The position numbers and the translations under genes are program-made. This document shows, in pieces, positions 9,397 to 20,383 of a stretch of DNA of 26,761 bases (position 1 is its first letter; each line of letters starts with the position of its first letter). The notes below the pieces were generated by a model, which was given only the letters and a program-made list of their open reading frames with translations, had not been told where the DNA came from and did not search any database. The DNA comes from a virus: IMG/VR virus record IMGVR_UViG_3300046804_004875, positions 1 through 26,761 of that record; one strand, written 5' to 3'.

Positions 9397-11613
9397 ATGG
9401 ACTTTCTTAGTAGTTTTAATCGAACGGATTTTTTTGGAAAAGACCCAGTTTCAATCTTTCTTGGTCAAGTTGAAGATGTCAACGACCCTAAGATGTCTGG
9501 TAGAGTAAAGGTTAGAGTAGTTGGTATTCATCCGAAAGATAAAACGGGTGAAGATTCACTTAAGACAAAGGATTTGCCTTGGGCACATGTAGTAATGCCA
9601 ACAACTCATGCTCAACAGGCTAGAGTTGGGGGTAAGCACGGATTGTTGCCTGGTTCCTGGGTCATTGGATTCCATATGGATGGCCAAGAATTTCAGATGC
9701 CTTTTGTTATTGGTAGTTTTAACTTTACTGCGAAATCTGTTGATTCAAACAATCGAAAATCTCCCGTTGGCCAGGACGGAACACTATCTGATGCCGACCC
9801 TACATTTACTAAATTAATTGCAGGTTCGTCTCAATTTCCAAATTCAGGTAGAAACACAACCAAAGAACCAGGCGGTATATTGTTTGGTGACCCAAGTGAC
9901 CCAGCTGGCGATACAGTTTTAAGTGAAGCTGATGCTACTAAATGTGGTGGGGAAAAAGTACTGATTTCTGTTGCTGATGTTAATAGACAAGATAAGTACA
10001 CAAAGGCAGGAAATCCCTCTGGTCAAGTTAAAAAAGTAACAAAGGCCGATGGTGCTTGTGGTTCCACTAAAAATGCAAAAGAAGACGTAAAAAAAGAGAT
10101 GGAAGAACAGCTTCCATCTGCTACAGATAGATTTTTATATGGTGATGTGGTATGGAATAACATCACCGGTAATTTCATTAATTTGAATGGAATTATTAAT
10201 AATCTTGCTTGTACCCTTGCTTCTTACTTTATTCAGGCAATAATGTCAAAAAAGGCAGAGGAAGAAGAGAAAAACCGAGAAGATAGAAAAAAAGGCAATA
10301 AAGAAGCAAATGATAGAGATGGTAAGTTAGTAGAAGAAACTGATGATTCACAACAAGCAAAAGATGATGTATTTCACGCACTTCTTGCTACCACTTTAAT
10401 TGACATTTTATGTTCTCTATTACAACAGTTATTAAGAGATATTGATAAGAATGCTGGTCCTAAAGGAATTGTCAACCCAGGGGCAGACTGTATTGCTGAA
10501 CAAATTACCAATAACGTTGAATCGATTGTAGATAAGGCAATAAAAGAAGCTAAAACTAGTGCTTCCAATTTTGACATTTCTTCTATTATATCTCTTGCTA
10601 GTAGTTTATTAGGTTTTATTAAATTTACTGAAGAAGAAAAATATACAACAAAGGAACCTCATAACAAAGCGGGTAAACAATCACAAGATAAAAAGAATAA
10701 AGAGGATAGATGTAATAAGGAGAGAGTATATAATACTGAACTAGGTTCTCTCCCTTCGATAGGATTTAACTTTGGTTCGTTTGGCGGCGGAACTGGATTT
10801 TCTTCTAATTTTGGTGGAACACGTAATGCATCCACTGGAGAAGTAAATACGGTACCGTGTAGAGACTCCGAAACTCCAGATGAAGAAAACGGTTCCGGGG
10901 CTGAAATTCTACCGGTTCCACTTCCAGCTGACATTCAAGGACCGTGTGCTCGGAATTTTGAATTGGGTGTTCCAAATACTTTAGTTATTTTAAATCCAGG
11001 CAGAGGATATTTTTACTATGATGAAATACAAAATAAAGTAAATTTCCCAATCATTTATATAAGAAATTATCGGGGAACACCAATTCCAGTTGTGGATAGA
11101 ACTACTGGTGAAATTGTTCTAGTAGTTACCTCTTGTTCTTCATTTGACCCCGATGACCCATCTTCTCCTGTTACTGTTATTCCAGCTTCACCTATAGAGA
11201 ATGAAGGTATCTTTAGTGATGACCCAAATTTCAATGTAAGATTAAACGGATTCTTCATTCAAAATACAGGATTCAATTACTGTGAGCCAGTTATTGATAT
11301 CATCGATAGAGATACTGGTGCTGTAAATGGAAAAGCCAGAATTGAGGTAGTCGAAGGAAGAGTAGTTAATATTGAAGTTATTGAAAAGGGAGATAATTTC
11401 AAGAGAATTCCTGAAATTATCATTACAGATAATGGTTCGAAGTGTAATGGTTTGATAGGAAGTGGTGCAGTAGTTTATCCTATAATGGAACTAGTACCAA
11501 GAGACGATGAACGTATTCTAACTCTGGAACGAGATGTAATATTCAGGCTTTCTCCAACGTTAGAAAATGGAATTTTTGACAAAGATGGCAATAAAGTGGG
11601 AGAATTACAGTAA
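9397..11613 (+). CDS. 5: Baseplate hub protein gp5, OB domain, lacking lysozyme
   Basis: 738 aa. The N-terminal OB domain (about residues 17-110) carries VEDVNDPKMSGRVKVRVVG, then DLPWAHVVMP and LPGSWVIGFHMDGQ, as in T4 gp5 and VgrG-type spikes; it sits on the gp27 trimer. No GH24 lysozyme follows, unlike T4 gp5. Instead residues about 235-450 are Lys/Glu-rich and helical, about 460-500 are Gly/Asn-rich, and about 515-725 are beta-rich with GRGYFYYDE- and NTGFNYCEP-type turns reminiscent of beta-repeat tail proteins. The beta-helix needle is also missing from this chain and is encoded next, through a one-base overlap (TAATG). The muralytic function seems to have moved to the 1191-aa protein downstream. 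Confidence 0.88.
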   Translation: MDFLSSFNRTDFFGKDPVSIFLGQVEDVNDPKMSGRVKVRVVGIHPKDKTGEDSLKTKDLPWAHVVMPTTHAQQARVGGKHGLLPGSWVIGFHMDGQEFQMPFVIGSFNFTAKSVDSNNRKSPVGQDGTLSDADPTFTKLIAGSSQFPNSGRNTTKEPGGILFGDPSDPAGDTVLSEADATKCGGEKVLISVADVNRQDKYTKAGNPSGQVKKVTKADGACGSTKNAKEDVKKEMEEQLPSATDRFLYGDVVWNNITGNFINLNGIINNLACTLASYFIQAIMSKKAEEEEKNREDRKKGNKEANDRDGKLVEETDDSQQAKDDVFHALLATTLIDILCSLLQQLLRDIDKNAGPKGIVNPGADCIAEQITNNVESIVDKAIKEAKTSASNFDISSIISLASSLLGFIKFTEEEKYTTKEPHNKAGKQSQDKKNKEDRCNKERVYNTELGSLPSIGFNFGSFGGGTGFSSNFGGTRNASTGEVNTVPCRDSETPDEENGSGAEILPVPLPADIQGPCARNFELGVPNTLVILNPGRGYFYYDEIQNKVNFPIIYIRNYRGTPIPVVDRTTGEIVLVVTSCSSFDPDDPSSPVTVIPASPIENEGIFSDDPNFNVRLNGFFIQNTGFNYCEPVIDIIDRDTGAVNGKARIEVVEGRVVNIEVIEKGDNFKRIPEIIITDNGSKCNGLIGSGAVVYPIMELVPRDDERILTLERDVIFRLSPTLENGIFDKDGNKVGELQ

Positions 11614-12584
11614 TGGCTGGTTCTAAGATTAAAAAAGATAAAGTTGAATATCAATATTCATTTCCGTGGGTTTTTCCCGATGGGTCTCAGTTTTCAGTAT
11701 ATTCGACCCCAAAAAATGAGACACTTGTGATTCAACATTCCAGTGGTTCTCACATTGAGTTTAAGTCAGACGGAAGTGTATTTCTTCATTCAATGAAAGA
11801 TTTTCATGTTCATCAGAGTGCTGCAGGTACACTAAGTTCAAATGAAAAACGTTCTGATAGTTCAACTTCTAGAACAGAGGTTGACCAAACAATTGAGATT
11901 AAGGGGCGGCTCAGAATTAAGTGTGATGAGTTTGATTTGGAAATAGCTAAAACCGGTAGAATATATTCGGGGACGGATTTATTTGTACAATCAAATAATT
12001 TAATTGCTAAATCAACAGAAGCAATTACTCTTGAACCAAGAAAGACACTACATATTGATACAAAAGAAGTTCGTCAGAGATATGTCTCCCAAGTAACAGA
12101 AAATGCCACCAAAGAAGATGGTGGTGGCCCCGGTGGTGCTAGAAATACAATGAATGTTTCTGGTAATTTTACTATTCGAAATGATGACCCCAACGGTTCA
12201 ATTTCTTTATATTCCAAGGGATATATTAATATCGTTTCTGGGATGGAACGAGTTGATATTATTGGAGATTACACCGATACTCCGAGTCAACAAGCTAAGG
12301 CAACTTTTACTACTATTGTTAAGAACCCAACTCAGGGGGGAAAAGGTCAAATTGGTAATGGTGATTTATACGAAGAGGTTGCTAATAAAGTAACTATTAA
12401 ACACACCCAGGAGGGTGGAGATTATATACATGAAGTTACTACTGGCAATATGACTGAGAAAGTTTTACAAAAAGACTTTAAACAGGAAGTGGCAGGTAAT
12501 AGAACCAGACAAGTATCCAAAGATGAAACCATTAATGTTGGTGGTATTCAACGGGTAAACGCTAAGAAGATTTTCTTGAATTAG
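11613..12584 (+). CDS. Spike beta-helix protein, equivalent to the C-terminal part of T4 gp5
   Basis: 323 aa. Two parts are visible: an N-terminal beta domain with HSSGSHIEFKSDGSVFLHS (about residues 42-60), typical of spike proteins just above the needle, and a C-terminal region with short strands ending in turns such as VTTGNMTEKV, VAGNRTRQV and VGGIQRV, resembling the V-x-G repeats of the gp5 triple-stranded beta-helix. It overlaps the gp5 stop by one base and lies upstream of the PAAR tip gene, as expected for the membrane-piercing needle. It carries no catalytic motif. The identification rests on repeat pattern and context. Confidence 0.8.
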   Translation: MAGSKIKKDKVEYQYSFPWVFPDGSQFSVYSTPKNETLVIQHSSGSHIEFKSDGSVFLHSMKDFHVHQSAAGTLSSNEKRSDSSTSRTEVDQTIEIKGRLRIKCDEFDLEIAKTGRIYSGTDLFVQSNNLIAKSTEAITLEPRKTLHIDTKEVRQRYVSQVTENATKEDGGGPGGARNTMNVSGNFTIRNDDPNGSISLYSKGYINIVSGMERVDIIGDYTDTPSQQAKATFTTIVKNPTQGGKGQIGNGDLYEEVANKVTIKHTQEGGDYIHEVTTGNMTEKVLQKDFKQEVAGNRTRQVSKDETINVGGIQRVNAKKIFLN

Positions 12585-13598: not shown

Positions 13599-14303
13599 AT
13601 GGCTTTACCTCGTCCAAGTACACCATTATATAATGCAGTCATTCCTTCAACCAAACAGAAAATTAGATATAGACCGTTTACTGTTAAAGAAGAAAAAATT
13701 CTAATGTTAGCCGCAGAATCTCAAGATTCTGGTGAAGTAGCGAATGCGGTAGAAACGGTAATCAATAATTGTCTGGAGACTTCTATTGATGTACGTTCAC
13801 TCGCGACATTTGACATCGAATATCTTTTTCTACGTCTTAGAGCTAAGTCAGTTGGTGAGAAGATTTTTCTTAAAACTGTAGCTCCTGATGATGGTCAGAC
13901 AGAAATTGATATTGAAATTGACATCGACAAAATTGGAGTGGATGTTCCTAAAGAACATACTAATAAAGTTAAATTTAGTGATAACTTTATGGTTGTAATG
14001 AAATACCCAAACATTGAATTTTTCAGTGAAGGAATTGACCTTTCAAGTCTTGATGCTAGTTCAAAGGTATTGGCTAGATGTATTTCTCAAATTGTAGATG
14101 GTGAAGAAGTATATCAGGCCGCGGACCAAACACAAGAAGAAATTGTTGAATGGATTGAGTCTCTTACTTCTTCACAGTATGGTGAACTTGAAAAATTCAT
14201 CAATACTATGCCTAGACTCAAACATGTAGTTAAAACCAAGAATCCAGTGACTGGAAAAACAATCGAGATTCCATTGGAAGGATTGGCAGATTTTTTCCAA
14301 TAG
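13599..14303 (+). CDS. 26: Baseplate hub subunit gp26 (T4_baseplate family)
   Basis: 234 aa, T4 gp26 is 208. It belongs to the hub assembly pathway. Family features are PFTVKEEKILMLAAES (about residues 27-42), NAVETVINNCLETSIDV and TFDIEYLFLRLRAKSVGEK (about 68-87), followed by acidic strands and a C-terminal helix-rich domain with EEIVEWIESL. The last codons are GAT TTT TTC CAA TAG. T TTT TTC is a canonical -1 slippery site, and a 16-bp hairpin follows it, so a share of ribosomes probably shifts into the -1 frame and makes a 294-aa fusion with the next feature. Expression comes from its own late promoter. Confidence 0.9.
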   Translation: MALPRPSTPLYNAVIPSTKQKIRYRPFTVKEEKILMLAAESQDSGEVANAVETVINNCLETSIDVRSLATFDIEYLFLRLRAKSVGEKIFLKTVAPDDGQTEIDIEIDIDKIGVDVPKEHTNKVKFSDNFMVVMKYPNIEFFSEGIDLSSLDASSKVLARCISQIVDGEEVYQAADQTQEEIVEWIESLTSSQYGELEKFINTMPRLKHVVKTKNPVTGKTIEIPLEGLADFFQ

Positions 14304-14341
14304 CTCTCAAATATGTGTCGATTGATACGTATTACGAGAGC
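14291..14341 (+). promoter_or_regulatory. Programmed -1 frameshift signal at the end of gene 26
   Basis: T TTT TTC (14291-14297) stands in the correct phase for the X XXY YYZ rule two codons before the TAG. After a 5-base spacer comes a stem-loop at 14303-14341: outer stem GCTCTC / GAGAGC (6 bp), a small internal loop, then an inner stem with ATATGTGTC / GATACGTAT and one more A-T pair (10 bp, two of them G-T), loop GATT. Spacer and stem are within the range for bacterial and phage -1 frameshifting. That the signal works is inferred. Confidence 0.75.
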
Positions 14342-14482
14342 ATGTTCAGTTTAATTCATACTCATGGTTGGGATATGAATTATATTGATACTTTAATTCC
14401 TTGGGAAAGAGATATACTATTGACATATTTGTCAAATTTGATAGAAGTTCAAGAACTTCAACGTAAGAATAGACCAAGATAA
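14297..14482 (+). CDS. -1 frame extension of gp26, tail assembly chaperone-like
   Basis: 61 codons open in the -1 frame relative to gene 26, from the slippery site to TAA at 14480-14482. The product reads PIALKYVSIDTYYESM, then LIHTHGWDMNYIDTL, then PWERDILLTYLSNLIEV and ends QELQRKNRPR. The PWER-(x)n-L pattern resembles the short second domains of tail assembly chaperones, which in phages such as lambda and P2 are added by -1 frameshifting. Possible independent starts (GTG 14315, ATG 14342) have no properly spaced ribosome binding site and would begin inside the hairpin. Its place between 26 and the large tail genes is that of T4 gene 51, but I cannot show homology, so no symbol is given. 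Confidence 0.7.
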   Translation, partial: PIALKYVSIDTYYESMFSLIHTHGWDMNYIDTLIPWERDILLTYLSNLIEVQELQRKNRPR

Positions 14483-14550: not shown

Positions 14551-16797
14551 ATGCAATTAGGCAAGTCTCCCCTACAGAAATCATTTAAAGTTATTGTAGA
14601 TAAGATGGAAAAAATCGAGAAAAATATCTCGATTATTTTGGAGTTAGAAGAAGAAGAGATTGAGTTTCTTAAGAAGAAAGAAAAAAGAGAGAAAGATAGG
14701 GAAAGAAAGAGAAAACAAAATGAAAAAAGATTTAGCCTTGGTCTTCGAAATGTCCTAAAAGGAATGAAAAAGAAAGCTGAGAAAAAAGTAAAGAGTTTTC
14801 TCGATACCTTAAAAGAACTTTTAATCAAGGGACTATTGGTTACAATTGTTGGTGCAATTGTTGCTAATTGGAAAACCATTGAACAATGGTGGAATGATAC
14901 TAGACAAAAAATTGAAGATTTGATTAATTCCTTCAATGAAGGTGTAAATGATATATCAGAATGGTTTGGTGGTGGAACTGTAATTGGTCAAAAAGACCCA
15001 TCTACCAATAGAGAAGATTTTGAACAAGCATTACATGATTTTCTTAAGAAAAAGTTCAATAGAGAATCGGATTCCGGAAAAGTTTCATATCGTAGAGATG
15101 GTGATAAAATTGTTATTACTTTTTCCGATGGAACAGAACAGGTAATTGAAAAGACTAGTCCCGATTATGGTGATATTAATTCTATTGTGACTCTTTTGGA
15201 AGGGTCAACTTCTGGACTTAATTTAGGTGTATTGGATACTAGATCGACAATACAAAAATATACTGACCTAAATCGTAGAAAAAAAGAAATTGAAAAAGAA
15301 TTACCAGAGACTACGGATACAACTAGAAAAGAAGAGTTAAATAGAGAACTTCAAGAAACAGTTAAAAATCTTGGAGATATAAAAAATAAAATAAAAGATT
15401 CCAAGATTAAGTTGAGTGAATCAACCAAGTCACAATTAAATATTCCAGATGAAATTAAAGAGTTATTTGAAACTGTGCCATCGACCGAACGTAAACGTTC
15501 CGGTGGTGATATTATCATGACCCCCGGAGGAGGTAATGTTTTCGGTAAAATAAAAACAGGAGATACAGTTCCTGCTTTGTTGGAACACGGTGAATACGTT
15601 CTGAATAGAAAAGCGGTAGAACATATTGGTAAGAATAATCTAGATGCACTAAACTTTGGAACTGCTCCAAGGTTTCAGGCCGGTGGACAGGTTGGTAATA
15701 ATCGTGCGATGGAAAGTAATATTCCATCATTGAATCGAACTCAATCGGCTTCTAGAAACAATAATCAACAACGACAACAATCCAGGCCCGGCGGCGGAAA
15801 CATTATTGGATATACTGGCGGTGTTCCCGGTCAACGAGGTTCTGGCAGTTCTACAGGCCCACACGTACACCTTGAGTTAGGCACAGGTAGAAAGGATGGT
15901 AGACCATATGATTCTAATTTGCCTGGTAAATATATCCTAGTCAACAATCGACCAATTAGTTCATATCCTGTTACTTCTGGATATGGTATGCGTGGGGGTA
16001 GACCACACTATGGTATAGATTATGGTACTCCCCCAAATCTTCCTATTACTTTGGCAGGCGGGGCTATTTTCAAGGGATTTGATAAAACCTCAAATCCGGG
16101 TGGATATGGTTATTTTGCAGAAGCGGTGGACCCATCCGGTCGAAATTGGCTGATGGCTCACTTATCGGGAGATGGTAATGCTACTCCCGGTGAAGTATCG
16201 GGAAATTCAGATGCACAAGATTCTCCCGGTGGTTCAGGTGAATCTATGATGAGTTCATTTACATCTGGTATTTCTGGAGTTCTTCCTGCTGCTGGTCAAT
16301 TTTTACAAGGATTTGTACAAGGATTTCAAGAATCGTTTGGTAAAGGGTCACCTTCTACCACTCCGCCCAATCCATCTGCTCCCAATACTGTTTCCTCTTT
16401 ATATTCTTCTGGTTCTGTTGGTACTGCATCTGGCCCAATTGGAGATAGAATACCAGCAGTTTTGGAAAACGGCGAGTATGTTTTAAATCGCAATGCAGTA
16501 AAATTAATTGGAAAAGATAATTTAGATGGAATTAATTTTGGATTGGCATCTAGATTTGGAGACAGGGGGCCATCTAGTCAATTAATGCGACAAATTGGAA
16601 AAGGAAACTACATTGGTGGTAATCAGACAGTTCCAGTTATAGTGAATGCACCTAGACAAAATCCACAAGTGGTAGCTTCAACTGTTCCACAACCGAACGA
16701 TAATTTGCTTCCAAATTTACCGTCATTTCCACCAATGAGAGTCATGAACACATTGGCATTCAGACCAATGGGAACTACTTACACACCATACGCGTAG
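14551..16797 (+). CDS. Tail/hub protein with a circularly permuted M23 peptidase domain
   Basis: 748 aa. The N-terminus (residues 1-85) is a highly charged coiled coil (Lys/Glu/Arg), followed by a hydrophobic segment LLIKGLLVTIVGAIVANW (about 91-108). Residues 337-370 and 631-664 are two copies of a GDxxPAxLExGEYVLN unit (24 of 34 residues identical by eye), a type of segment found in tape measure proteins. Between them is a zinc peptidase of the M23 (LytM) type: GPHVHLEL (H438, H440), then GYGMRGG and HYGIDYG (H486, D490), then MAHLSG (H537). All ligands are present, but HxH comes before HxxxD, the reverse of the usual order. It probably cleaves peptide cross-links during infection. It shares an SGIS-x2-LP-(x)n-GF-x2-GF motif (about 572-595) with the next protein. 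Confidence 0.85.
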   Translation: MQLGKSPLQKSFKVIVDKMEKIEKNISIILELEEEEIEFLKKKEKREKDRERKRKQNEKRFSLGLRNVLKGMKKKAEKKVKSFLDTLKELLIKGLLVTIVGAIVANWKTIEQWWNDTRQKIEDLINSFNEGVNDISEWFGGGTVIGQKDPSTNREDFEQALHDFLKKKFNRESDSGKVSYRRDGDKIVITFSDGTEQVIEKTSPDYGDINSIVTLLEGSTSGLNLGVLDTRSTIQKYTDLNRRKKEIEKELPETTDTTRKEELNRELQETVKNLGDIKNKIKDSKIKLSESTKSQLNIPDEIKELFETVPSTERKRSGGDIIMTPGGGNVFGKIKTGDTVPALLEHGEYVLNRKAVEHIGKNNLDALNFGTAPRFQAGGQVGNNRAMESNIPSLNRTQSASRNNNQQRQQSRPGGGNIIGYTGGVPGQRGSGSSTGPHVHLELGTGRKDGRPYDSNLPGKYILVNNRPISSYPVTSGYGMRGGRPHYGIDYGTPPNLPITLAGGAIFKGFDKTSNPGGYGYFAEAVDPSGRNWLMAHLSGDGNATPGEVSGNSDAQDSPGGSGESMMSSFTSGISGVLPAAGQFLQGFVQGFQESFGKGSPSTTPPNPSAPNTVSSLYSSGSVGTASGPIGDRIPAVLENGEYVLNRNAVKLIGKDNLDGINFGLASRFGDRGPSSQLMRQIGKGNYIGGNQTVPVIVNAPRQNPQVVASTVPQPNDNLLPNLPSFPPMRVMNTLAFRPMGTTYTPYA

Positions 16798-16807
16798 GAG
16801 CAGATAG

Positions 16808-19800
16808 ATGTCAGATTTTCAGAAATTGATAGATTCATTAGACCCATTGTCTGGTGAAAATTTATCTGCTTTCAATGAATCGGAAGTAAAAGAATTCATA
16901 GATTCGCTTAAACATACAGAAAAATATACTAATGAATTAATTGGTAGAAATAAAAAAAGAATTAAATTTGATAAATTTTTAGATAATAAACGTCTCAGAG
17001 ATGAGAAGAAAAGAGAAGCGGAAGATAAAAGAAAAAAGAAAGTTAGATTAGAAGATACCGTCGAATTCACTGAACAAAAAGTTGAAGACGAAACTGATGA
17101 TGGGTTAATCAAGGCATTGACTCAACTTTTAGCTGGTGGTGCATTAACAGCTGCATTGGCTGCTTCAAATCCAGAATTATTTTCTAAAATTCAACTTAAG
17201 AAATTAACAGGTGTTCCACTTAAAAAGTTTATAAAACCAAGAAAAACACCGAAACCATCAGTACCAGAAAGACCAACAAGAACACCATCTTCTGTTGCCA
17301 GAACAGCTGCAGAATCCGCAACTAGAACACCAACTTCTTCGATTAGAGGAACAACTGCTGGTGAAAATATTATATCTCGTATCTTTGGCACTAGTGCTAG
17401 TGCAGGCCGAACCATTATTTCACCAACACCACGTGGATTGACTGCGGGAGTACAAAGACCCAGAGTTGAAGTAGAAATTCCCGGTAAAGGATTTAGGACT
17501 GTTCAGGAATCTGGTAGAGTAAATAATTTACTACAAGAAATTCGTGAAAAAGCAGTTAGAAACGGATTCACTCCATCTGAAGCATCTAAGTATGCAAATA
17601 GTTGGAAAGATAAACTTATTAAGGCATCCAGAGTTTCAGCTAATACACTAGGAGTTGTTGGTAAAGGAATTATTAAGTCTTTGCCATTTATTGGTGCTAC
17701 CCTTGGGTATGTAAGTGCAAATCAACGGGCAGAACAAGGATTCACACGATTAGCTGCATTAGAGAGAACCATTGCTGGTGTTGATGTTTTTGTTGGTGTT
17801 TCGGGTGTTACTGGTGTAGGAACAGGAGCAGCTGGTATTGCTGCTGCAGGAACATTTTTGGCGGACATGGGTTTATTGGTAGTTGATTTGGTTGACATGG
17901 CTACCGAAGTTGTCACTGGTAAAAAACTAGCTAGTAATGCAGTTGAATACTGGTTATCTCAATTTGATAAAAGGCCAAAAATTAATCCCACCAGAAATAT
18001 AAAAGACCCAAAATTTATAAGACCAGAATATTATGATGATTATTTAAAACAAATAAAAGAACTTAATCCTACTGGAGCTCGTTTTCAATCTGGGGGCAGA
18101 GTTCGAAGATTTCAGACGGGCGGTTCGACCGATGGGATTGCACTGAATACAATTAAACATCATGAAGCTCTATCTTCACTCACTCCTGGCCAAAATGATT
18201 ATGTTAAATCCGGAAGTCGTTCAGTTATATCTGGAATTCCTTGGTCTAGGATAAATGGCAATACAAAAATTTATTCTTATAGAGATTCTAAAGGAATCCC
18301 GACAATTGGATGGGGTACAGTAACTCAACCAAATGGAAGACAAACCAGAGACGGAGAAGTAATTACAAAACAACAGGCTGATAATCTTCTAAACTGGAAT
18401 TACCAGAACATGAAAAAATACATGTCTCGGGTAATTCCTACATGGAATGGGATGTCTCCTTCTCAACAAGCGGCAATTATGGTTCTTACATACAATACTG
18501 GGCCGGGATGGTTTGCTACTTCTGGCGACGGTGCATGGCCAAGTCTAACCAGAGCTATTGTTTCTGGTGATTTTAGGGGGGCCTTGCGACACTGGTCTGG
18601 TTCTGATACAGTACTGGAGCCAAGAAGAAGAGAAGAGAGAATGTTATTCTCCAGAGGTCCAGCAAAACCAGAAGTAAAGAAACAAAAACAGGGAGAAACC
18701 GGTAGTATAGATGCAGGTGTTATTGGTAAATTAAAAAATATATTTGGATTTCAATCTGGTGGTTCGATTGGAAATTTAAATGACCTACAGAAGATGTCAT
18801 CTCAGGGAATGACATTATCTATGGGTAATGTTCCTATGAGTGTGATTACCAGAGGCGGTGCCAGTTCTGTTAATGAAATGAAACAATTTGAAAAAATTGC
18901 CTCTAGATATGGAGTCAGACTTCAGTCTGGTGGCATTGTACTGTTCTCTGGTCATGGTGATATTTTAGATGTAAATGGAACCAATGGTTTAATTGGTTCT
19001 ATTAATGGAGAAACAGCAGAACAACATTATACTAAGAAAGTTGCTTCTGCAATTAGAGATAAATCTGGTGGGAAAATTAAATATATACCATCACAAGTTA
19101 AGTGGAGAGCAAAATCTGACCCAGAGCCAGCCAATTCTAATTGGAATCTAGGCAAAAAACAAGCAAGTATTGGAAACATCCCCATCGAATTACATTTTGA
19201 TACTCCTACCGGTCGGTCTGGGTTAATTACTAGTAATTTAAATCGACCAGTTAGTGAATCCGAAAAAGGATTGATATCTGCATTTGGAACAATCACTGGT
19301 GATTATGGTGCTGGTAAGTATGGAGTATCAATGTTGGAACTCGAACCAATGAAAAGGTCTGTTGCTGTAAGTTCATTGGCGGATAAATTTATAAAAGCGG
19401 TAGAAGGTAAATACGGAACGGCATCAGTTTCAGAAACAAGTTCTGATAGTTCCCCAGCAACTCAACCACAACAGTCGTCAATAGGACAATCTATATCATC
19501 TGGTATAAGTAGTTTAATTCCGGGTTTGGATTCTTTCATGAAAGGATTTGCCGAAGGATTCAAACAAACATCCGGAATTGATTTAGGTTTAATGTTTGGA
19601 CAAACAGCTCAAGCTGCAGCTATTCCCCCGCCCGGTAGTGATTCTTCAAATGTTCCTTTTAGTATCGAATCCCCACCACGTTCAAACGAGGAAGCTTTTA
19701 AAAAGATATATGATGCGGCCAAAAGAGCCGGCGACCCTGTTCCAGAATTAACTGCTGCTCAAGCTATGTTTGAAAGTGGATGGTTGTCCAGTAAAAAGGC

Positions 19801-20383
19801 AAGGGAATTGAATAATCCTTTTGGTCAAACTGGCGCTGGTGATGCAGGTAGTGTATTCATTGGTGATAGGAGATGGGCAAAATATTCATCTTATGATGCA
19901 GCTGTTAAGGCACGTATCAGAAGATGGGCAACTACAACACCAGCTGGCGGCCCAGGTTATGCATCCGCCGGAGGTGCACCAATTCCCGGTTTGAAGGCTA
20001 TATTGAATACATATGCTCCTGCTTCTGAAAATGACCATAGTGCTTATATTGGTGCTGTATCTAATATACTCAGACAATTTGGTTTCGACCCAAATAAGAA
20101 AAATATGGCTGGAATCCGAATTGCATCTAGACAATATGGTGGTTTCATGGATAATTCAATTCAATCACGTATTGTTAAACAAATGGTTAATGGTTCATAT
20201 ACGTCAATAAATAACAATGAACCACAAGTAGTAATACTAAATCAACCACAGACATCAACTCCACCGGTACTTAGTCCAGTAGTATCAATTCCCAAATTTT
20301 CTTTTGAATATATTACTGGTGATGGTACAGATGGATTTATGTTGAATGAGTTATATGGATTACTTCAACTATCTTCTTTATAA
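16808..20383 (+). CDS. Giant tail-associated peptidoglycan hydrolase: GH24 lysozyme, amidase and GH73-type domains
   Basis: 1191 aa, start preceded by GGAGC. The N-terminus is a charged coiled coil (about 1-95), then a hydrophobic stretch (about 98-120), a Pro/Thr-rich linker, and a long hydrophobic region (about 285-380) rich in Gly, Ala and Val. Three enzyme-like domains follow. A GH24 lysozyme (about 445-620) has HHEAL (E453), YRDSKG (D493) and TIGWGT (T499 and T504). A putative zinc amidase (about 710-870) has LFSGHGD (H716), SINGETAEQHY (E735 or E738) and IELHFDTPTGRSG (H796). A glucosaminidase of FlgJ/GH73 type (about 965-1095) has AQAMFESGW (E989) and NNPFGQ. It probably supplies the lysozyme absent from gp5. 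The amidase call is the least certain of the three. Confidence 0.88.
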   Translation: MSDFQKLIDSLDPLSGENLSAFNESEVKEFIDSLKHTEKYTNELIGRNKKRIKFDKFLDNKRLRDEKKREAEDKRKKKVRLEDTVEFTEQKVEDETDDGLIKALTQLLAGGALTAALAASNPELFSKIQLKKLTGVPLKKFIKPRKTPKPSVPERPTRTPSSVARTAAESATRTPTSSIRGTTAGENIISRIFGTSASAGRTIISPTPRGLTAGVQRPRVEVEIPGKGFRTVQESGRVNNLLQEIREKAVRNGFTPSEASKYANSWKDKLIKASRVSANTLGVVGKGIIKSLPFIGATLGYVSANQRAEQGFTRLAALERTIAGVDVFVGVSGVTGVGTGAAGIAAAGTFLADMGLLVVDLVDMATEVVTGKKLASNAVEYWLSQFDKRPKINPTRNIKDPKFIRPEYYDDYLKQIKELNPTGARFQSGGRVRRFQTGGSTDGIALNTIKHHEALSSLTPGQNDYVKSGSRSVISGIPWSRINGNTKIYSYRDSKGIPTIGWGTVTQPNGRQTRDGEVITKQQADNLLNWNYQNMKKYMSRVIPTWNGMSPSQQAAIMVLTYNTGPGWFATSGDGAWPSLTRAIVSGDFRGALRHWSGSDTVLEPRRREERMLFSRGPAKPEVKKQKQGETGSIDAGVIGKLKNIFGFQSGGSIGNLNDLQKMSSQGMTLSMGNVPMSVITRGGASSVNEMKQFEKIASRYGVRLQSGGIVLFSGHGDILDVNGTNGLIGSINGETAEQHYTKKVASAIRDKSGGKIKYIPSQVKWRAKSDPEPANSNWNLGKKQASIGNIPIELHFDTPTGRSGLITSNLNRPVSESEKGLISAFGTITGDYGAGKYGVSMLELEPMKRSVAVSSLADKFIKAVEGKYGTASVSETSSDSSPATQPQQSSIGQSISSGISSLIPGLDSFMKGFAEGFKQTSGIDLGLMFGQTAQAAAIPPPGSDSSNVPFSIESPPRSNEEAFKKIYDAAKRAGDPVPELTAAQAMFESGWLSSKKARELNNPFGQTGAGDAGSVFIGDRRWAKYSSYDAAVKARIRRWATTTPAGGPGYASAGGAPIPGLKAILNTYAPASENDHSAYIGAVSNILRQFGFDPNKKNMAGIRIASRQYGGFMDNSIQSRIVKQMVNGSYTSINNNEPQVVILNQPQTSTPPVLSPVVSIPKFSFEYITGDGTDGFMLNELYGLLQLSSL

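Follow-up and report, generated by a model that had tools for sequence, protein, structure and literature searches.

A 2022 study is reported to describe frameshifting in tail assembly chaperone genes as conserved in several groups of T4-like phages, with T4 itself using genes 26 and 51. Two later papers convey that Vladimirov, Gautam and Davidson (Virology 2022) identified the chaperone genes of the gp26/gp51 family in T4-like phages: the PRFect paper, citing that study, notes that some T4-like phages do not frameshift but have one short and one long copy of the chaperone gene (PMC10885494), and the paper on phage Adele credits it with the poly-T slippery sequences in the TAC-N genes of T4-like phages (PMC12846349). 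Because both citing papers give this credit, the mechanism in the gp26 family was, as far as they relate the 2022 work, already known, and the statement of our preliminary description that no account of a gp26/gene 51 frameshift pair was known does not stand. In T4, gp51 is absent from the particle, and gp26 and gp51 are both listed as hub assembly chaperones (PMC3004832). Sullivan et al. 2010 found the gp51 of cyanophages to be cut to about 20% of its normal length, the first ~200 residues being absent, and recorded that Aeh1 has no gp51 (PMC3037559).

The window considered here (the whole stretch of viral DNA that we analysed, 26,761 bases) has its nearest named relatives in the Kyanoviridae at about 46–50% protein identity, and it is therefore placed on a deep branch; judged from its sequence, the phage would be a Kyanoviridae-like (T4-like) myophage, a kinship from which a cyanobacterial host is not to be assumed. 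Its gp26 has at most 50% identity to the records searched, and the window is a new, divergent, deep-branching member of the known frameshifting family. Compared with the systems of the 2022 study, as these are represented in the two citing papers, it has the same gene family, but in a divergent phage and with an unusually strong stem, and the codon, selection and structure statistics come from the present analysis. Almost certainly, gene 26 is a tail assembly chaperone gene that makes a short and a long form by −1 ribosomal frameshifting, with the features collected in Table 1.

Table 1. Features of the gene 26 region, with positions counted from the first base of the window.
Feature	Positions	Strand	Evidence or remark
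Gene 26, short form (TAC-N)	13599..14303	+	234 aa; PF12322 E 8e-65; phrog_150 baseplate hub E 6e-69
Slippery heptamer T TTT TTC	14291..14297	+	sequence; in X XXY YYZ phase, two codons 5' of stop
5-nt spacer, heptamer to stem	14298..14302	+	sequence and fold
0-frame stop TAG of gene 26	14301..14303	+	sequence
Stem-loop, 6 bp + 10 bp, 4-nt loop	14303..14341	+	−19.9 kcal/mol, z −6.24; likely stimulator
−1 frame, C-terminal extension (TAC-C / gp51 C-terminal domain)	14297..14482	+	61 codons plus stop; phrog_634 match
Next gene downstream	14551..16797	+	748 aa; weak repeat-type hits to tape measure PHROGs

The product of gene 26 matches PF12322 (T4_baseplate, the gp26 family) over the full profile with 219 bits, the curated cut-off being 24.5, and the 3' end of the gene reads GAT TTT TTC CAA TAG. 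An in-phase T TTT TTC near this end, and a 16-bp stem-loop beginning five bases after it, had both been claimed in the preliminary description; the position and phase of the former were confirmed in the sequence, and the latter was found again as a stem with pairs 14303–14308/14336–14341 plus 14310–14319/14324–14333, for which an equally good fold was obtained in 0/200 shuffles and which is the second strongest among the 91 loci compared. The short form has the C-terminal peptide TIEIPLEGLADFFQ, and the predicted shift-spanning peptide of the long form is TIEIPLEGLADFFPIALK. The heptamer alone is weak evidence: in the window's genes, with 8,468 codons in all, the pattern XXXYYYZ occurs in phase as often as 66 times.

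Gene 26 3' ends were compared in 80 IMG/VR loci with gp26 relatives plus annotated phage records; a related-locus search started from the gp26 of Vibrio phages K469 and K567 returned nothing. The statistics are based on 91 complete loci, on 74 representatives with less than 85% nucleotide identity, and, for RNA structure, on 59 representatives. Close to the stop, every one of the 91 loci has an in-phase heptamer, either T TTT TTC or T TTT TTT, together with an open −1 frame, and this heptamer is invariant in phages of the Kyanoviridae, Methylophilales, Sinorhizobium and Aeromonas, in KVP40-type Vibrio phages, and in those of Stenotrophomonas, Agrobacterium/Rhizobium, Cronobacter (S13) and Desulfovibrio. 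Among the representatives, F232 is encoded by TTT in 74/74 and F233 by TTC in 71/74, and no other of the 28 conserved columns has a synonymous entropy as low as these two. The codon 5' of Phe-Phe always ends in T, whichever residue it encodes (S as AGT or TCT, D, A, G, N). From codon usage alone, the chance of the heptamer in the 74 representatives would be ~10^-29, a figure that is overstated because a star tree was assumed. The abundance of XXXYYYZ in the window speaks for an incidental heptamer, with Phe-Phe conserved for the sake of the protein and the −1 frame being noise, a reading whose probability we regard as practically nil: it is refuted by the synonymous choice fixed at both Phe codons, unlike that of other conserved gp26 Phe codons, which are mixed (F27 40:33, F77 33:39), and also by a −1 frame that is under purifying selection and homologous to the T4 gp51 C-terminus. 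As a separate observation, the Stenotrophomonas phage locus L127 (about 2245–2255) is almost the same as L126, but its slippery run is shorter by one T, which moves gp26 to another frame and is either a sequencing error or a real variant.

The RNA directly 3' of the heptamer is structured in most relatives, with a mean z of −1.9 to −2.1 and 78–83% of the 59 representatives below −1, as against z values of −0.15 to −0.26 at 100–200 nt and +0.45 at 50 nt upstream. The identity of the stem varies among relatives, the commonest being a 5-bp hairpin 10–23 nt past the heptamer with partial covariation, clear in two of its five pairs. Of the conservation that the preliminary description proposed to look for in aligned gene 26 ends, that of the heptamer was seen in all 91 loci; the compensatory changes in the stem were found only in part, and the stems themselves differ. 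The position of the structure exactly 3' of the site, as ribosomal frameshifting predicts, also bears on transcriptional slippage along the T run as the source of the −1 product, which we consider extremely unlikely; in its favour there is the T6 run here, and Melnitz, C48C1 and phiN3 have runs of at least T7, but T6 runs are short for efficient RNA polymerase slippage, and a C caps the run in exact codon phase in 71/74 representatives.

Ribosomal frameshifting would give access to a −1 frame that begins PIALKYVSID from 14297 and stops at 14480–14482; translation confirmed the earlier claim that it is open for 61 codons. The frame is matched by phrog_634, “baseplate hub assembly catalyst” (gp51), with E 3e-16, and by 463 phage records in tblastn. 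It is under purifying selection, with a pN/pS of 0.229 vs. 0.215 for gp26 and differences of 0.36/0.215/0.527 by codon position. The frame had also been said to have no credible start of its own, and this agrees with what we found in the window: there is no ATG before codon 15, and the only start codon in that interval is GTG 14315, which lies within the stem and has no Shine–Dalgarno-like AGG, GAG or GGA upstream. These same findings count against the 61 codons being a separate small gene with its own start or with stop/start coupling, which is how GenBank annotates gp51, with starts that are inconsistent from record to record (S-SM1 +8, syn9 +50, OLIVR5 +41, counted from the first base of the gp26 stop). 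TAATG/TGATG overlaps in K567, Mendera and LIMEstone1 favour such a gene, as do an ATG or GTG with a weak purine-rich match upstream in 33/91 loci and an ATG early in the −1 frame in 70/91 relatives, where some independent initiation may occur. However, 17/91 loci have no ATG, GTG or TTG before the core domain, and a separate gene leaves unexplained both the fixed TTT TTC codons and the homologous fusion in T4 gp51, so we consider it very unlikely as the general explanation of the frame.

The connection with T4 is drawn through gp51, whose residues 1–201 match PF12322 over the full profile (E 4e-52) and whose remaining C-terminus matches phrog_634, as the −1 frame does; the −1-frame profile also aligns directly with residues 210–245 of T4-type gp51 (E 5e-7). 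BLASTP of T4 gp51 against the window's gp26 alone gave no significant match, and the Pfam and profile comparisons were needed. Because gp51 consists of the PF12322 domain (1–201) plus the same extension, T4 gp26 and gp51 are, by sequence homology, paralogues, gp26 matching the short form and gp51 the long one, which upholds the suggestion of the preliminary description that gp26 is linked with the gene 51 position. Since T4 gp51 is a gp26-family domain plus extension, one frameshifting gene would here serve for both of the T4 genes, 26 and 51. The two systems are alike in that both T4 proteins carry the gp26 family domain and gp51 carries the extension homologous to the −1 frame, but they differ in that the two T4 forms are encoded by two genes on opposite strands, and T4 gp26 keeps Phe-Phe in GAG TTC TTT GAG (G TTC TTT), which is not slippery, its partner being a separate gene. 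In Aeromonas phages Ah1 and Asswx_1 and in Cronobacter S13, the −1 frame is unannotated and falls in gaps after gp26 (L089 4717–4884, L090 4705–4873 and L133 2217–2381, respectively).

In the Ackermannviridae (L108, L110, L111, L114, L121, L123, L128, L129), N NTT TTC/T takes the place of T TTT TTC, with the variants A/G ATT TTC, G GTT TTC and C CTT TTT two codons before the gp26 stop; the −1 frame is open, and several of these phages have no start codon at the gp26 stop. The likeliest reading is that NTT TTC/T acts as a weaker slippery site, and N NTT TTC/T presumably resembles the site of T7 gene 10. A stand-alone gp51 in LIMEstone1 and K469, considered on account of their TAATG overlaps, was dropped when more Ackermannviridae showed a kept NTT TTY, several of them having no start. 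The chances seem to us evenly balanced that frameshifting at gene 26 is ancestral in the wider group, with the Ackermannviridae having kept a weaker site and the Tevenvirinae having duplicated the genes and lost the site.

The AlphaFold models of gp26 and T4-type gp51 (mean pLDDT 87 and 83, respectively) have the same order of secondary structures, with extra C-terminal helices in gp51. The N-domain of the gp26 model superposes on the HK97 tail assembly chaperone 2OB9 with Z 8.0 and an rmsd of 4.2 over 84 aligned residues, a score that is borderline alone and at the edge of chance; the next solved structures are 3FGX (Z 7.6) and 3KLU/YqbN (7.3), which we take to be prophage chaperone relatives, and all others have Z ≤2.8. 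When PDB sequences were searched with the gp26 profile, nothing relevant was matched. The likeness to 2OB9 lies in the fold of the N-terminal ~85 residues, and only this N-domain is common to both, at 12% identity, gp26 having a further part of ~150 residues. Since the −1 frame has gp51 identity, T4 gp51 is the gp26 domain plus extension, and the modelled fold is 2OB9-like, the lambda G/GT-type chaperone-pair reading proposed in the preliminary description is supported, and models and homology together support gp26 as a probable gpG/gpGT-like tail assembly chaperone. The predicted long form consists of the whole short-form domain plus a C-terminal extension under purifying selection, with T4 gp51 as its natural fused homologue. 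In LIMEstone1, gp26 is annotated as “confirmed structural protein”, which is awkward for a chaperone absent from virions.

By the mechanism that we propose, most ribosomes would stop at TAG 14301 and give the 234-aa short form, while a minority would pause at the stem-loop, slip by −1 on T TTT TTC and read to 14482, giving a long form of 294 aa, to which gp26 contributes the first 233 and the extension the other 61. If the lambda pair gpG/gpGT is taken as a guide, the short form may coat the tape measure protein, and a few copies of the long form may use the extension to recruit tail or hub subunits; the ratio of about 30:1 belongs to lambda, and no sequence similarity to gpG/gpGT is expected of the 234-aa protein of the window. 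In T4, the same short/long pair would come from the two separate paralogous genes, 26 and 51. We infer that frameshifting takes place in vivo, with an efficiency that would leave the long form in the minority, and that the products bind the tape measure and the tube.

Genes for tail assembly chaperones characteristically stand immediately 5' of the tape measure gene. A candidate for the tape measure itself is the product of the next gene downstream, which is possibly, on weak similarity, tape-measure-like; it found one partial match in 50,697 phage records, and the genes downstream of gp26 in homologues belong mostly to uncharacterised PHROGs. Elsewhere in the window, the gp5-type spike is apparently divided between two genes, one for an OB-domain protein (9397–11613, Gp5_OB E 1.5e-7) and one for a separate protein with a weak Gp5 C-terminal repeat match (11613–12584, E 0.003), and the 1191-aa product of 16808–20383 has a phage lysozyme domain plus a glucosaminidase domain.

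With gp51 read as the frameshifted end of gp26, the short gp51 of cyanophages is directly explained, and its absence in Aeh1 likely has the same explanation; in the Aeromonas phages Ah1 and Asswx_1, the −1 frame is present but without annotation. Many cyanophage records list a small “gp51” gene that is probably a mis-annotated piece of a fusion protein. Were the ancestral reading true, strong site, weak site and gene duplication would form a natural series, and the gene 26 family would be a well-sampled case of frameshifting replaced by gene duplication.
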